Below, in pieces: positions 2,837 to 62,749 of a stretch of 64,000 nt of DNA (the stretch's first letter is position 1; each line of letters starts with the position of its first letter). A program made the position numbers and the translations under genes. The notes under the pieces are model-generated. The model had not been told where the DNA came from. It made no database searches and saw only the letters and a list, made by a program, of their open reading frames with translations. Origin of the DNA: Cyanobium sp. PLM2.Bin73 (GTDB taxonomy: Bacteria; Cyanobacteriota; Cyanobacteriia; PCC-6307; Cyanobiaceae); NCBI GenBank assembly GCA_007694915.1, contig REEV01000066.1:62001-126000 (forward strand). Direction: 5' to 3'.

Positions 2837-3673
2837 TCACGCCGCCGGCAGCACCTGGTGGTAGCCGTTGGCGCTGCACACCCGCAGCGGGGTGGCGAAC
2901 AGGTCGCTCAGGGGGCCGTCGCACAGCAGGTGCTCCACCGGGCCGTCGCCCACCACCCGGCCCGCCCGCAGCAGCACGGCGCGGCGGATCTCCGGGATGA
3001 TCGCCTCGATCTGGTGGGTCACCAGCAGCAGGGTGGTGCCGGCGCGGGCCAGATCCCTGAGGATCGCCAGCAGCTGGTGCCGGGCCTGCAGATCCAGGCC
3101 ATTGGTGGGCTCATCGAGCACCAGCACCTCGGGCTGGTGCACCAGGGCCCGGGCCAGCAGCAGGCGGCGGCGCTGACCGTCGGAGAGCTGGCCGAAGGGC
3201 CGATCAGCCAGCTCCGCCAGCCCCAGCTGCGCCATCAGCTCCGCCACCCGCGCCTCCATGGCAGCGCTGGGCTGCTGGCTGCGGCCGATGCCCACCGAGC
3301 CGAAGAAGCCCGACAGCACCACAACGGCGGCCCTCACCTGGGGCCGGTAGTGGGCCTGCAGATCCGGCGACACCAGCCCCACGCGGCCGCGCAGCTCCCA
3401 GAGATTCACCGTGGTGCTGCCGAAGATCCGCAGCCACGAACCCGGTTTCACCACCGGGTAGAGCTCGCGGCTGAGCAGCTTCAGCAGCGAACTCTTGCCG
3501 GAACCGTTGGGGCCCAGGATCACCGTGTGCTCACCACGGTGCAGGCACAGGCTGAGGTCGGTGAACACGGGCCGGGGCCCGAGCCAGGCCTCCACGGCCT
3601 GGAGCTCGAGGTAGGCGCTGAGGTCGCTGGCGGGGGACATGGCGCTCACCGTAGGCAGGGACGCGGCCGCCAT
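2837..3673 (-). CDS. ABC transporter ATP-binding protein
   Basis: Walker A GPNGSGKSS, signature LSDGQRRR, Walker B VLVLDEPTNGLD. Confidence 0.93.
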   Translation of the reverse strand: MAAASLPTVSAMSPASDLSAYLELQAVEAWLGPRPVFTDLSLCLHRGEHTVILGPNGSGKSSLLKLLSRELYPVVKPGSWLRIFGSTTVNLWELRGRVGLVSPDLQAHYRPQVRAAVVVLSGFFGSVGIGRSQQPSAAMEARVAELMAQLGLAELADRPFGQLSDGQRRRLLLARALVHQPEVLVLDEPTNGLDLQARHQLLAILRDLARAGTTLLLVTHQIEAIIPEIRRAVLLRAGRVVGDGPVEHLLCDGPLSDLFATPLRVCSANGYHQVLPAA

Positions 3674-56266: not shown

Positions 56267-58453
56267 ATGGTGTGCCCACCCATCACCGGCGCGGTTCAGG
56301 AAGGGGACAGGCGGGTCTCGTTCTTCAGCAGACGCTGGGTGTTCTGGTTGGCGATCCTGCCTCCCCTGGCCGCCCTTGTCCTGCTCAAGTTCGCGGATGG
56401 CGGTGCACCGGTCTGGATGCCATCCCTGCTGGTGCTGGCCTGGGTTCTATGGCTGCGCCGCCGCCCTGAGGCCAGCCTGCCCATGGCCGCGCGCCGCAGC
56501 GCCATCGCCCTGATCGTGCTGCTCAGCCTCGGCTACCTCGCCTGGCGCGCCACCAGCACCCTCAACCTGAGCACGCCGCTGGCCACGGCCATCAGTCTCA
56601 CAATGCTGGCGGCGGAAACCAGCCTGCTCGGCCATGGCCTGCTGCAGCTGCTGCTGGCCTGGTTCCGCGAGCCGCCGGTGGCCCGCGAGGCGGAGCAGGC
56701 GGCCCAGCGGCTGGCCCAGCGCTGGACCCACGATCTCCGGGCCCTGCCCGCCGTCGATGTGCTCGTGACCAGTTGCGGTGAGCCGCTGGAGCTGGTGGAG
56801 CGCACCCTGGGCGGCTGCCTGGCCATGGCCTACCCGCGCTTCTCGGTGTGGTTGCTCGACGACGCGGCCCGCCCGGAGCTGGAGAGGCTCTGCTCCCGGC
56901 TGGGCTGCCGCTACCGCAGCCGGGTCGAGCGCCACCAGGCGAAGGCCGGCAACCTCAACCATGTGCTGCCGGAGCTGGATGGCGATCTGCTGGCGGTGTT
57001 CGACGCCGATGTGGTGCCTCAGCACGACTTTTTGGCCCGCTGTGTGGGCCTGTTCGACGATCCGCGGGTGGCACTGGTTCAGACCCCCCAGAGCTACATG
57101 AACGCCGATCCTGTGATCCGCAATCTGGGCCTCGAGCGCTGGCTGATGCCGGATGAGGAGCACTTCTACCGCTGGATCGAGCCCGTTCGTCAGGGGGTGG
57201 GTGCCGTGGTGTGCGCCGGCACGTCCTTCGTGATGCGCCGCCTGGCGCTGCTGCAGGTGGGCGGGTTTGAAACGGCCACCTCCTCGGAGGACCTGGCCAC
57301 CGGGATCCGGCTCAGTGCCGCCGGCTGCCGCTGCGTTTATCTCAACGAGAAGCTCAGTGCAGGCCTGGCACCTCCCACCATTGCGGCGATGGCCCGGCAG
57401 CGCAGCCGCTGGGCCAGCGGCACGCTGCAGATCCTGCGCACCTCAGCCAGCCCGCTCACCATCGCCGGGCTTTCCCCGCTGCAGCGCCTGGCCTACCTGG
57501 AGGGAATCCTGCACTGGTTGAGCGTGCTGCCCCAGCTGTGCCTTCTGCTGCTGCCGCTCAGCTTCGGGGTGTTGCGGGTGCCGCCCCTGCTGCTGCGCGA
57601 TGACGGCTGGCTGACGCTGGCCCTGCCCATGGTGCTGGCCCAGCTGCTGCTGGTGCGCTGGTTCAGCCGCGGATCCCGCTCGGCTCTGCTGCCTGAGCTC
57701 TACCGCTGGGTGTTTCTGGCGCCGCTGCTGCACGCCGTGCTGAGCACCCTGGCGGGGCGGCCCCGGCGCTTCCGCGTCACGCCCAAGACGGCATCGCCGC
57801 AACGCCGGATGCCGGCAGCCGCCCTGGCGATCCCGCTCGTCGCTCTGCTGGCCCTGCAGCTGTTCAATCTCCAGCTGCTGCTGCGGGGGGGCGCTCCCGC
57901 CCTGCCCCTGGTGTGGAGTGGCCTGGCGATGCTCAGCCTGCTGGCAGCCCTGCGGGCCTGCTGGGATCGGCCTGCCAGTGGCGTGGAGGTGTGGTTCCAG
58001 CCCATCGCTGGCCAGGTGTGGCTCGAGCAGCACGGCCGGCGCTGGCCGGCCCGGCTCACGGCCATCAGTGAACAGGGGCTTGAACTCGCCTGGCGGCTTG
58101 TTGACCATCCCGGCCCCGGACCAGACCTGCAGCGGCCCCTGTCCCTTCTGAGTCCGGCACTGACCGGGAACGACTGGCCGCTGCAGGCCCAGCGCCTGGA
58201 GCGCCGCGGTGAGCAGATGCGGCTGGGGGCCGGCTGGCTGGGCCAATCAACCGCCGCGCGTGAACGGCGCCTGAGCCTGCTCTACCGCCAGGGCGGTCGC
58301 TGGCCGGTGCGGCAGGCCCCCAGGGAACCCCTGGCGCTGCTGGCGGTGCTGGTGGCCCTGTTGCGTCCCCTGCCGGCGCAGGGCTGGTTCCGGCGCAGCG
58401 CCCTGCCCATCCAGTTGGCGCCGGCGGCCGCGGTGCCCGAGCTGGTGGGTTGA
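56267..58453 (+). CDS. Membrane glycosyltransferase family 2, cellulose synthase (CesA/BcsA)-like, with PilZ-like C-terminal region
   Basis: VDVLVTSCGEPLELVERTL, LLAVFDADVVPQHDFL, ATSSEDLATGIRL, MARQRSRWASGTLQIL (Q/RxxRW), multiple TM segments. Confidence 0.9.
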   Translation: MVCPPITGAVQEGDRRVSFFSRRWVFWLAILPPLAALVLLKFADGGAPVWMPSLLVLAWVLWLRRRPEASLPMAARRSAIALIVLLSLGYLAWRATSTLNLSTPLATAISLTMLAAETSLLGHGLLQLLLAWFREPPVAREAEQAAQRLAQRWTHDLRALPAVDVLVTSCGEPLELVERTLGGCLAMAYPRFSVWLLDDAARPELERLCSRLGCRYRSRVERHQAKAGNLNHVLPELDGDLLAVFDADVVPQHDFLARCVGLFDDPRVALVQTPQSYMNADPVIRNLGLERWLMPDEEHFYRWIEPVRQGVGAVVCAGTSFVMRRLALLQVGGFETATSSEDLATGIRLSAAGCRCVYLNEKLSAGLAPPTIAAMARQRSRWASGTLQILRTSASPLTIAGLSPLQRLAYLEGILHWLSVLPQLCLLLLPLSFGVLRVPPLLLRDDGWLTLALPMVLAQLLLVRWFSRGSRSALLPELYRWVFLAPLLHAVLSTLAGRPRRFRVTPKTASPQRRMPAAALAIPLVALLALQLFNLQLLLRGGAPALPLVWSGLAMLSLLAALRACWDRPASGVEVWFQPIAGQVWLEQHGRRWPARLTAISEQGLELAWRLVDHPGPGPDLQRPLSLLSPALTGNDWPLQAQRLERRGEQMRLGAGWLGQSTAARERRLSLLYRQGGRWPVRQAPREPLALLAVLVALLRPLPAQGWFRRSALPIQLAPAAAVPELVG

Positions 58454-58506: not shown

Positions 58507-58713
58507 ATGCCTTCCCTCTCTTCCCGCCTGCGCTCCGGCCTGGCCGTCGCGGCCCTGTCCGCCGCTGCCCTCACCCTTCCCGCCTGCGCCGGCCTCTGCG
58601 GACCCCGCGGGGGTTGTGGGGGCAAGCAGGAACAAAAGGCCGGCGGCTGTGCGGCGGGCAAGAAGGGCGGTTGTGGTGCGGCGAAAGCCGGTGGCTGCGG
58701 CCCTGCCCAGTAG
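58507..58713 (+). CDS. 68-aa Cys/Gly-rich putative lipoprotein (candidate metal-binding peptide)
   Basis: MPSLSSRLRSGLAVAALSAAALTLPACAGLCGPRGGCGGKQEQKAGGCAAGKKGGCGAAKAGGCGPAQ; four GGC motifs, last three spaced Cx7Cx7C. Confidence 0.75.
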   Translation: MPSLSSRLRSGLAVAALSAAALTLPACAGLCGPRGGCGGKQEQKAGGCAAGKKGGCGAAKAGGCGPAQ

Positions 58714-58716
58714 CCC

Positions 58717-59355
58717 ATGCGCCAGCGCTACCAGGCCGGTTGCCGCAGCCTCCGCCACTGGCTCAGGGTCAACGAGCAGCATGGCTCGCTGGTTCGCGCC
58801 TGCACCGGCGACGGGGTGGTGCTGGCCGAGCGCCATTACCCCGAAGACGACTGGCGTGATCCGCGCGGCGGCGGCCAGGCCTACTACCACTGCCACCGGC
58901 CCGGCGCTGAGCACGGCCATCTGCATCTGTTCATGCGCGCCGAGCCCGGCGCCGAGCTCACCCATCTGCTGGCCATCGGCCTCGATCCGCGGGGATTGCC
59001 GCTCAGCCTGTTCACCGTGAATCGTTGGGTGGCCAAGGATGCCTGGTTGCCGGCTGGCCCGTGCGCCGAACTGGTGCAGCGCTTCAGCCTGGCGGGCAGC
59101 GACGCCCACCCCCGCTTCAGCGGCTGGCTGGAGCAGTTCCTGCGCTTCTATGCGCGGACGATCGAGGCCCTGCTGCTGCAGCGTGACCGGGCCCTGGCGG
59201 CCCGGGACGGTTCGCTGGAGCAGGCCCTCGAGAACCGTGACCTGGAGATCCCCAGCCAGGTGGCCATCGACTGGGGCGCCGATCTCGATGCCGTGCAGCA
59301 GCAGTGGCGAGCCCACGGGGAGCAGCTGCGGTTCAGCAGCAGGAGCCGCTCGTAG
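58717..59355 (+). CDS. Conserved protein with His-rich motif (DUF6969-like)
   Basis: YYHCHRPGAEHGHLHLFMR, HLLAIGLDPRGLPLSLFTVNRWV; family assignment from memory. Confidence 0.65.
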   Translation: MRQRYQAGCRSLRHWLRVNEQHGSLVRACTGDGVVLAERHYPEDDWRDPRGGGQAYYHCHRPGAEHGHLHLFMRAEPGAELTHLLAIGLDPRGLPLSLFTVNRWVAKDAWLPAGPCAELVQRFSLAGSDAHPRFSGWLEQFLRFYARTIEALLLQRDRALAARDGSLEQALENRDLEIPSQVAIDWGADLDAVQQQWRAHGEQLRFSSRSRS

Positions 59356-60487
59356 CGCTGGCTGCTGCTGGTGAGACAATGGTCCCCGAGGCCGATCCAT
59401 CGAAGGGCATGGCCGTGCCGCAGCCCTCGAACAGGCCGTAGTGGCGGCTGAAATCGCCGATGAAGCTGAAGTGGGGTGCCAGCCGGCTGTCGGCCAGCAT
59501 CCGGAAGGTGTTGCCGCACACCGGAAACACCCTGCCGGCCTCAATCCAGTGGTGCTTGTCGAAGGGCAGGGCGTGGGGGTGTTCGGCGATGGTGCCGCGG
59601 TAGATCACCGCCTGGCCGTGGTCTTCGCAGGCGTCCTCCAGCTCGGGGATGGAGAACAGGCGGTAGGTGGCGGAGAAGAAGCGGATGGCGCCGGTGCGGG
59701 CGGCCAGCTCCGGGTCGGTGATCTCCAGGGGCCGGTCGCTCACCAGGCGGGGGTCGGCGAAGCCGGCCTGGCGGGCCAGGCGCAGGAAGTCGTTCCAGTA
59801 GAGGGCCCCGCTGAGGCATTCGCCGTAGAGCACCGGATCGTGGCGCAGCGCCTCGGGCACGCGCCGGTCGGCGTACACGTCGGCGAAGAAGAACTCACCG
59901 CCGCTCTTGAGCAGGCGCCGCACCCCGCTGAGCACGGCCAGCTTGTCGGCCGAGAGGTTCACCACGCAGTTGGAGATCACCAGATCGAAGCTGCCCGGCT
60001 CCAGGGGCAGCTGCTCGAGCTGCTCGATGCGGCCCTCCATGAGCGTCACGTTGGCGAAGCCGAACTGCTCGGCGTGGTGTTGCTGGTGCCGGCGGGCCAC
60101 CGCCAGCTGCTCCGGGGTCATGTCGACGCCCACCACGGCGCCGCTGGCGCCCACCAGCTGGGCCAGCAGGTACACATCCCTGCCACTGCCGCAGCCCAGG
60201 TCCAGCACCCGCAGGCCCTCCAGCAGCGGCGGCACCACCAGTCCGCAGCCGTAGTAGCGCGCCAACACTTCGGGGTGGATGCGGGCCAGCAGGGGCCGCA
60301 GCGCTGCGGGCACGCTGCTGGCGTCGCAGCAGGCGTCGGTGCGCAGGTCGGCGCTGCTGCTCAGGGTGGCGCCGTAGTACTCCTGCACGCCGCGGCTGAG
60401 GTCGGGGCTGCTGGTGTCAGGGGTGCTGGTGTCGGGGCCGCAGCAGCTGGTGCCGATGGGGGTGGTGATCTCGGTGCTGCTGGACAT
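59333..60487 (-). CDS. arsM: SAM-dependent methyltransferase, arsenite methyltransferase (ArsM)-like
   Basis: YYGATLSSSADLRTDACC, LDLGCGSGRDVYLLAQLVG, DLVISNCVVNLSADK, EFFFADVYADRRVP, C-terminal SGSCC. Confidence 0.85.
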   Translation of the reverse strand: MSSSTEITTPIGTSCCGPDTSTPDTSSPDLSRGVQEYYGATLSSSADLRTDACCDASSVPAALRPLLARIHPEVLARYYGCGLVVPPLLEGLRVLDLGCGSGRDVYLLAQLVGASGAVVGVDMTPEQLAVARRHQQHHAEQFGFANVTLMEGRIEQLEQLPLEPGSFDLVISNCVVNLSADKLAVLSGVRRLLKSGGEFFFADVYADRRVPEALRHDPVLYGECLSGALYWNDFLRLARQAGFADPRLVSDRPLEITDPELAARTGAIRFFSATYRLFSIPELEDACEDHGQAVIYRGTIAEHPHALPFDKHHWIEAGRVFPVCGNTFRMLADSRLAPHFSFIGDFSRHYGLFEGCGTAMPFDGSASGTIVSPAAASATSGSCC

Positions 60488-60547: not shown

Positions 60548-62749
60548 TCAGCCGCGCCGCCGCCAGGCGTGGTACCGGCGCAGCCAGGGCATCAGGCGGT
60601 GGGGCACCCGCTGCTTCTTCCAGCTGGCGGCGGCGACCTTGTTGGCCTCCGCCATGGTGGGGTAAGCGTGAATGGTGGCAAAGATCTTGCCCAGGCCCAG
60701 GCCCCACTTCATCGCCAGCACAAACTCGGCCAGCAGCTCGCCGGCATGCTCGCCCACGATCGTGGCGCCGAGGATGTGGTCGCCGCCAGGCCGGGTGAGC
60801 ACCTTCACGAAGCCCTGTTCGGCGCTGTCCACGATGGCGCGGTCGAGCTCGTGCAGGGGGAAGCGGGTCACCTCCACCGCCACCTTCTGCGCTGTGGCCT
60901 CGGCCTCGGTGAGCCCCACCGTGGCCACTTCCGGTTCGGTGAAGGTGGTGCGGGGGATCACGCGGTAGTCGGCCTTGAAGGAGCGCAGGTTGCCGAACAG
61001 GGCATTCACCGCCGCATACCAGGCCTGGTGGGCGGCGGTGTGGGTGAACTGGAACGGTCCGGCCACATCGCCGGCGGCGTAGATGTTCGGGTAGTTGGTC
61101 TGCAGGAAGGCGTTGGTGGTGACCGTGGCGCCGGTGGGGATGCCCAGCTCCTCGAGGCCGTAGCCCGTGAGCCGGGCGCGCCGGCCGAGGGCGCAGAGCA
61201 CGGCATCGCAGGCGATGGCCCGCTCCTCCTCCCCCTGCTGCACCCGCACCGTCACCGCGCCCTGGGGGCCGCTCTGTCGCTCGAAGCCGAGCACCTGAGC
61301 CCCCATCAGCAGGGTCACGCCGTCGGCCTCCAGGGCCTGCTGCACTTCGGCGGCCACATCGGCGTCTTCCTTCTTCAGGAGGCGCTGGCTGCGCTGGATC
61401 TGGGTGATCGGCAGGCCCAGCTGGGCCAGGGCCTGGGCCAGTTCGCAGGCGATCGGGCCGCCCCCCAGCACCGCCAACCGCGGCCGCTCCAGGGCGCAGC
61501 GGCCCAGCCAGCTCCACACCGTTTCGCTGGTGAGCAGGGGCACGGCATCGCTCCCCGGCCAGTGGGGCACAACCGGCTCGGCGCCGGTGGCCAGCACGAT
61601 CGCGCGCGCCGTCAGCCGCTGCTCCTGCCCCTGGGGACCCTGGATCACCACGGTCCAGGGATCGAGCAGGCGGGCCTGGCCGCGCAGCACCTCCACCCCC
61701 AGGCCCTCGTAGCGCTCGACGCTGTCGTGGGGCGCGATCGCCTCCACCTTGGCGGCCACCCGCGCCAGCACCTGGCGCATGCTGAGGTGCGGCTCCACTG
61801 GCTCGAGGCCGTAGCGGTCGGCCCGGCGCATGCGGGCCGCCAGCCGCGCCGAGCTGATCAGGGCCTTGCTGGGCACGCAGCCGGTGTTGAGACAGTCGCC
61901 GCCCATCTCGGAGCGCTCCACCAGCGTCACCCGCGCCTTCACCGTGGCGGCGATGTAGGAGGTCACGAGCCCCGCAGCGCCGGCGCCGATCACGATCAGG
62001 TTGCGGTCAAAGTGGCGCGGCCGCCGCCAGGGGCGGTAGAGCCGCCAGGTCTGCCAGCGGCGGGTGGCCGCCTTCGCCAGCCAGGGGAACAGGGCCAGCA
62101 GCAGCAGCGAGCCCAGCAGGGGCGGGCTGAGGATGCCGCCCAGGCCGCGCAGCTGGGCCAGCTGGGTGCCGGCGTTCACGTACACCAGGGTGCCGGGCAG
62201 CATGCCCAGCTGGCTGGTGAGGTAGAAGCTGACGGCCCGCATCGGCGTCAGCGCCATCAGCAGGTTGATCAGAACGAAGGGGAACACCGGCGCCAGCCGC
62301 AGGCTGAGCAGGTAGAGCACCCCGTCGCGGGCCACGCCCGCCTCGATCGGCGCCAGCTGGCGCCCGAAGCGCCGCCGCACCAGATCGCGCAGCAGGGTGC
62401 GGGCCACCAGGAAGGCCAGCAGGGCGCCCAGGCTGGAGGCGAACGACACCAGCAGCGTGCCCAGCCCCAGGCCGAAGATCGCCCCGCCGGCCAGGGTGAG
62501 CACCGCGGCCCCCGGCAGCGACAGGGCCGTGACCAGCACGTAGATCAGCATGTAGGCCCCCGCCACCAGCAGGGGCGACTGGGCCCGCCGCTCCAGCAGG
62601 GCGCTATGGGCACGCTGCAGGCCCTCGAGGGTGAGCTGGCGGTGCAGGCCCAGGCCGAAGAACACGACCACCACCAGGGCGATGGCGGCGATCAGCAGCA
62701 GCTGGCGCCAGCGGTGCCGGCCGGCAGGTGGTGAATCAGGCGAGTGCAT
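60548..62749 (-). CDS. Fusion of TVP38/TMEM64 membrane domain and FAD/NAD(P)-disulfide oxidoreductase
   Basis: N-terminal PGAAVLTLAGGAIFGLGLGTLLVSFASSLGALLAFLVAR; C-terminal LIVIGAGAAGLVTSYIAA, GGDCLNTGCVPSKALI, IYAAGDVAGPFQFTH. Confidence 0.93.
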   Translation of the reverse strand: MHSPDSPPAGRHRWRQLLLIAAIALVVVVFFGLGLHRQLTLEGLQRAHSALLERRAQSPLLVAGAYMLIYVLVTALSLPGAAVLTLAGGAIFGLGLGTLLVSFASSLGALLAFLVARTLLRDLVRRRFGRQLAPIEAGVARDGVLYLLSLRLAPVFPFVLINLLMALTPMRAVSFYLTSQLGMLPGTLVYVNAGTQLAQLRGLGGILSPPLLGSLLLLALFPWLAKAATRRWQTWRLYRPWRRPRHFDRNLIVIGAGAAGLVTSYIAATVKARVTLVERSEMGGDCLNTGCVPSKALISSARLAARMRRADRYGLEPVEPHLSMRQVLARVAAKVEAIAPHDSVERYEGLGVEVLRGQARLLDPWTVVIQGPQGQEQRLTARAIVLATGAEPVVPHWPGSDAVPLLTSETVWSWLGRCALERPRLAVLGGGPIACELAQALAQLGLPITQIQRSQRLLKKEDADVAAEVQQALEADGVTLLMGAQVLGFERQSGPQGAVTVRVQQGEEERAIACDAVLCALGRRARLTGYGLEELGIPTGATVTTNAFLQTNYPNIYAAGDVAGPFQFTHTAAHQAWYAAVNALFGNLRSFKADYRVIPRTTFTEPEVATVGLTEAEATAQKVAVEVTRFPLHELDRAIVDSAEQGFVKVLTRPGGDHILGATIVGEHAGELLAEFVLAMKWGLGLGKIFATIHAYPTMAEANKVAAASWKKQRVPHRLMPWLRRYHAWRRRG

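Follow-up and report, generated by a model that had tools for sequence, protein, structure and literature searches.

Our analysis indicates that P0001, a small Cys/Gly-rich peptide encoded in the 64,000-nucleotide window (the whole stretch of Cyanobium sp. PLM2.Bin73 DNA that was analysed), is one half of an apparently undescribed two-gene unit, in which a predicted exported Cys-array peptide is paired with a protein of the DUF6969 family. We assign a probability of roughly 0.55 to the reading that this unit combines a bufferin-like periplasmic thiol trap for soft metals and metalloids with a cytosolic DUF6969 protein acting as its dedicated partner or maturase. The DUF6969 partner gene is the main finding, and lay outside the frame of an earlier sequence-only reading of this DNA; a literature search found no publication naming DUF6969. 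The features discussed below are collected in Table 1.

Table 1. Features of the P0001-DUF6969 region, in window positions.
Feature	Position	Strand	Basis and remarks
P0001, 68-aa Cys/Gly-rich peptide, predicted exported; Cys at residues 27, 31, 37, 48, 56 and 64	58507..58713	+	Exact translation; homologs in four cyanobacterial genomes; dN/dS about 0.02-0.08
Predicted Sec signal peptide of P0001 (residues 1-28), cleavage between ACA and G (signal peptidase I); alternative lipobox, cleavage between LPA and C at Cys27	58507..58590	+	By eye
Predicted mature Cys tail of P0001 (residues 29-68), Cys 31, 37, 48, 56 and 64	58591..58710	+	Sequence; Cys number and spacing differ among species
DUF6969 (PF22308) protein, 212 aa, probably cytosolic	58717..59355	+	Pfam E 2.5e-46, 158 bits against a cut-off of 27
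ArsM-type arsenite methyltransferase-like	59333..60487	-	NCBIfam PRK11873 best, E 4.8e-49, below cut-off; Methyltransf_31
VTT (TVP38/DedA) domain fused to MerA-like FAD disulphide oxidoreductase	60548..62749	-	Pfam; context

The P0001 gene is real, conserved and coding. The 68-aa sequence given for it by the sequence-only reading matched our translation letter for letter, and the gene was found in four cyanobacterial genomes, i.e., the genome of the window (G000), two other Cyanobium genomes (G012, with 96% identity, and G004, with 86%), and G546, which belongs to another genus of the same family. Between G000 and G004, the first 46 codons carry 13 synonymous and 2 non-synonymous changes, against a random expectation of 26% synonymous (0 of 5000 simulations were as high as observed), and NG86 dN/dS was 0.02/0.42 for this comparison and 0.05-0.08/1.2-1.3 against G546. 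An alternative upstream TTG start would give an ORF of 87 aa; sequence conservation begins at the ATG chosen by the earlier reading, and not at the TTG. P0001 had no match in Pfam or NCBIfam, weak matches in two further genomes (G008 and G059) were discarded as unrelated reading frames, and no RNA families, sigma-70-like promoters or terminators were found near the gene.

The partner gene begins 3 nt past the P0001 stop codon. In fact, a P0001-type peptide lies within 5 nt of DUF6969 or overlaps it in all four cyanobacterial DUF6969 loci, with spacings of 3, 3, 5, and -1 nt, which suggest translational coupling, and the two genes are probably coupled in this way.

Moreover, the peptide-DUF6969 pair recurs in distant lineages, namely cyanobacteria, Burkholderia, Rhizobiaceae, and Skermanella. 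A tblastn search of plasmids located DUF6969 in Neorhizobium (a single record) and in Sinorhizobium, Burkholderia, Azospirillum, Ciceribacter, and Skermanella, and the flanks were read in the latter five genera. On Burkholderia glumae plasmids, an 89-aa KCAPKCAPKC peptide (MKKSSMVALS...KCASKCAPKCAPKCAPKCAAQ) is encoded 100 nt upstream of DUF6969; in Ciceribacter, a 12-Cys APCAAA array peptide (...NPCSAAAPCAAAAPCAAAAPCAAS...) lies 34 nt upstream; in Sinorhizobium, an APCAAGAPCAA peptide (...APCAAGAPCAAAAPCAAG...) overlaps DUF6969 by 8 nt; and in Skermanella, a ANPCAAKAANPCA peptide (...ANPCAAKAAANPCAGK...) is found 110 nt downstream. These arrays (KCAPKCAPKC, APCAAAAPCAA, ANPCAAKAANPCA) are unlike P0001 in sequence, and the design they have in common with it is a basic/hydrophobic export signal followed by closely spaced Cys in a background of Ala, Gly, Pro, Lys, and Asn.

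Furthermore, five replicons, 1.32 Mb in all (Cyanobium C125, 180 kb; B. glumae bglu_2p, 140 kb; Skermanella pSM-3, 300 kb; an Azospirillum plasmid, 400 kb; and the Ciceribacter plasmid, 300 kb), were scanned in six frames for ORFs that combine a signal-like start with at least three [AGPKNS]C[AGPKNS] sites, a Cys content of 5% or more, and a tail of low complexity. Exactly four ORFs conformed to this rule and all four adjoin DUF6969, a result that is weakened, and not removed, by the rule having been drawn up after the examples had been seen; among 20 codon-shuffled windows, none yielded an ORF satisfying it. For the S. meliloti array ORF overlapping DUF6969 (L030:3589-3963), no CDS is given in the gene table of PLSDB, itself incomplete, and such peptides may therefore escape annotation.

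The exception to this pairing was Azospirillum, where DUF6969 follows a Mla-type lipid transport operon (MlaE/ABC/MlaD/auxiliary-lipoprotein; loci L021-L023, L027, L036, and L037), and no Cys-array peptide was found near DUF6969 or in 400 kb of one Azospirillum plasmid; a search elsewhere on Azospirillum plasmids gave no convincing match. This is a second context for the family, and DUF6969 can consequently have another role. In the DUF6969 tree, Skermanella (linked to a peptide) and Azospirillum (unlinked) form a clade with starred support (98/96), which makes a loss plausible, so that the peptide link may have been lost in Azospirillum; the tree has two long branches, and the deep placement of this clade is unsure. 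Among viral contigs, one partial Azospirillum-like DUF6969 was seen, with no Cys peptide in the part in view, and two further viral-contig scans and a phage collection returned no DUF6969 match.

In an alignment of 15 DUF6969 sequences, the residues Y41, P42, Q54, H58, H60, G67, H68, H70, H83, T100, N102, W104, W110, R156, D157, R174, and E177 were invariant. Two HxH motifs (H58-x-H60 and H68-x-H70) and H83 account for five invariant His, which suggest a metal site, and the invariant residues together look like a site of metal binding or catalysis. DUF6969 showed no evident signal peptide, and its action is therefore likely to precede export. An AF2 model built from 4 sequences was poor (mean pLDDT 55), a fold search with this model gave no significant PDB match, and no match to the PDB was obtained by sequence; the enzymatic nature of DUF6969 is thus a guess from the invariant His. 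The possibility that DUF6969 is a divergent MNIO or DUF2063-type partner was rejected, as hhalign comparisons with individual sequences from B. glumae gave probabilities of less than 1%.

In this context, it is conceivable, and we propose it tentatively, that DUF6969 represents a new enzyme family that is metal-dependent and modifies peptides, its substrates being Sec-exported Cys-array peptides; this would constitute an MNIO-independent class of metal- or metalloid-binding RiPPs in cyanobacteria and proteobacteria. Conserved pairing of precursor and putative enzyme across lineages, as a new RiPP class calls for, was observed in cyanobacteria, Burkholderia, Rhizobiaceae, and Skermanella, and not in Azospirillum. 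Rather unlikely, in our view, is that P0001 is an unmodified secreted thiol buffer of the metallothionein kind, for which DUF6969 would serve only as a chaperone, holdase or reductase-like partner keeping the tail reduced and export-competent. Low-complexity tails with variable Cys spacing require no precise recognition by an enzyme, translational coupling is compatible with a chaperone, and the B. glumae island includes a thioredoxin/CcdA pair that would suit a thiol-reduction route; however, the five invariant His, along with Q54, T100, N102, R156, D157, R174, and E177, look catalytic or metal-binding and not holdase-like.

Regarding export, all P0001 homologs display, as judged by eye, a basic start, a hydrophobic core and an AxA site, and an (A/G)xA site (ACA, GCA, AYA or AQA) is present in every homolog and paralog. 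The proposal of the sequence-only reading that P0001 is a lipoprotein is weak at best: four orthologs do carry LPAC or LPGC, followed by AG, but the usual lipobox rule (the PROSITE pattern) does not allow the Pro that this places at -2, and the Cys is not kept in paralogs, since a G546 paralog has LPAYAG where P0001 has LPACAG, and the second paralogs in Cyanobium have LAAQA-MP or LTAQA-MP at the lipobox place. A signal-peptidase-I site, (A/G)-x-A, would fit all members, whereas the lipobox Cys does not.

Likewise, the C-x7-C-x7-C array highlighted by the same reading is present in P0001 (C48-x7-C56-x7-C64), but the spacing is not kept in G004 and G546, whose homologs end in ...KAGCCAAGKKGGGCAAQ and ...KAGGCGAAKSGGCGAER, respectively. 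Because tail length and spacing change between species, the array, on the sequences compared, characterises this allele and the relative nearest to it, and is no conserved motif. A lack of homologs with conserved Cys spacing had been named in advance as refuting the earlier proposal and, taken literally, this is what was found; the gene is nevertheless clearly conserved and coding. The variable number and spacing of Cys disfavour a precise metal site.

As regards a mechanism for the preferred reading of a trap with its dedicated partner, P0001 would be synthesized in the cytosol, where DUF6969 would handle it. DUF6969 would most likely be a metal-dependent enzyme or else a dedicated partner, with the Cys tail as its target prior to export. 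The peptide would be exported via Sec, cleaved after ACA, and serve in the periplasm as a bufferin-like thiol trap for soft metals or metalloids, for example As(III), Cu(I), or Cd. Export and metal binding are inferred here, as are any modification of the peptide and a role of DUF6969 in acting on it. The interpretation of the sequence-only reading is upheld in part: its notion of an exported thiol- or metal-reactive peptide is supported by an N-terminus resembling a signal, by conservation of the Cys/Gly/Lys tail, and by the metal/arsenic gene context.

Bacterial metallothioneins are small Cys-rich proteins that act as soft-metal ligands. P0001 resembles them in size and Cys content, with soft-metal ligation expected, and differs in its predicted export, its low complexity, its variable Cys spacing, and its dedicated partner gene. 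Bufferins, which comprise Buf1/DUF2282, Buf2, and Buf_EGKCG/oxazolin, are MNIO-modified copper-binding RiPPs (PMC12452194); the text of that paper holds only two "DUF6" terms, both of them DUF692. The P0001 unit is similar to bufferin systems in that short Cys precursors, here predicted to be Sec-targeted, are encoded beside cytosolic partners in metal-stress/sigma-factor contexts. In contrast, it has no MNIO (PF05114), DUF2063 or DUF2282, its partner being DUF6969, for which no similarity was detected either to the MNIO of B. glumae or to the DUF2063-type partner there. The assignment of P0001 to the HvfA/bufferin type, suggested by the sequence-only reading, did not hold: the peptide has no DUF2282 match, MNIO was found in none of the four cyanobacterial genomes (a Caulobacter control was positive), and DUF2282 (Buf1) was equally absent from all four.

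In Cyanobium and G546, the pair is located inside an arsenosugar-type island with genes for an ArsM-like methyltransferase, a VTT/FAD-oxidoreductase fusion, a glycosyltransferase, DUF547, ArsS (TIGR04167, E 1e-136 in Cyanobium), and ECF sigma/anti-sigma factors; the G000 island also has a heavy-metal P-type ATPase. The ArsM-like gene is convergent to DUF6969 and is part of the island context, outside the two-gene unit. The upstream glycosyltransferase gene (56267-58453) was rejected as a member of the unit, as the G546 pair has no glycosyltransferase upstream. The B. glumae bglu_2p island (L031:1-28720) carries a TVP38/FAD-oxidoreductase fusion, arsS, DUF547, CMD, TIGR04282/4283, and sigma/zf-HC2, and the VTT/TVP38-FAD disulphide oxidoreductase fusion is common to the Cyanobium and B. 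glumae islands. In the latter, the DUF6969 + KCAPKC pair stands alongside an independent full bufferin cluster (DUF2282/DUF692/DUF2063-like/DoxX). In Sinorhizobium, rhodanese and YeeE/YedE (Sulf_transp) transporter genes lie directly upstream; the Ciceribacter locus has a YeeE-like gene, and the Skermanella locus has DUF302 and sigma-70/NrsF. The common denominator of these contexts is thiol, sulfur or soft-metal stress.

An arsenic-specific accessory of the arsenosugar pathway, with a Cys tail that would capture As(III), or methylarsenite, within the envelope, appears improbable. The islands of Cyanobium and B. glumae do associate the pair with arsenosugar clusters, through ArsM/ArsS (TIGR04167), glycosyltransferases of TIGR04282/4283, and a TVP38/FAD-oxidoreductase fusion common to both, but ArsS is near universal in cyanobacteria (44/60 genomes over the family cut-off) and DUF6969 is rare (3/60 relatives, and 1/386 genomes sampled over the phylum, this one being G000). 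Most ArsS genomes are therefore without the pair, and the arsenosugar pathway does not need it; in addition, the alphaproteobacterial regions read (Sinorhizobium, Skermanella) have the pair and no arsenosugar genes were seen there. A role as sulfur or persulfide carrier, with the Cys array storing or relaying sulfane sulfur in the envelope, is highly improbable, because the rhodanese and YeeE/YedE genes of Sinorhizobium and the YeeE-like gene of Ciceribacter that speak for it have no counterparts seen in the Cyanobium, Burkholderia, and Skermanella loci.

If the reading of a thiol trap with a dedicated DUF6969 partner is correct, DUF6969, a domain of unknown function, would gain a testable role; exported Cys-array peptides, so far mainly associated with MNIO enzymes, would gain a second independent partner family; and a thiol-trap system would be tied to cyanobacterial arsenosugar islands. 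Should DUF6969 modify the peptide, the pair would define a new RiPP class.

Besides P0001, a second Cys peptide, a predicted exported paralog, was observed in the same island of the three Cyanobium genomes (L012:13227-13415 in G000, L013:13871-14095 in G004, and L080:6105-6335 in G012), before a CMD-like gene and DUF4079, with 2 to 4 tail Cys depending on the species. A third paralog, in G546 (L079:717-947, reverse strand), has 8 Cys, ends in ...KGCCAAKPSGGCAGKAKSCCAAN, is the one bearing LPAYAG, and does not adjoin DUF6969. On the reverse strand of L081 (within 2900-3600; G543), an ORF with a signal-like start and a tail with two GGCG motifs lies directly before a DUF4079-like frame, and the second paralog family therefore seems to reach another genus.
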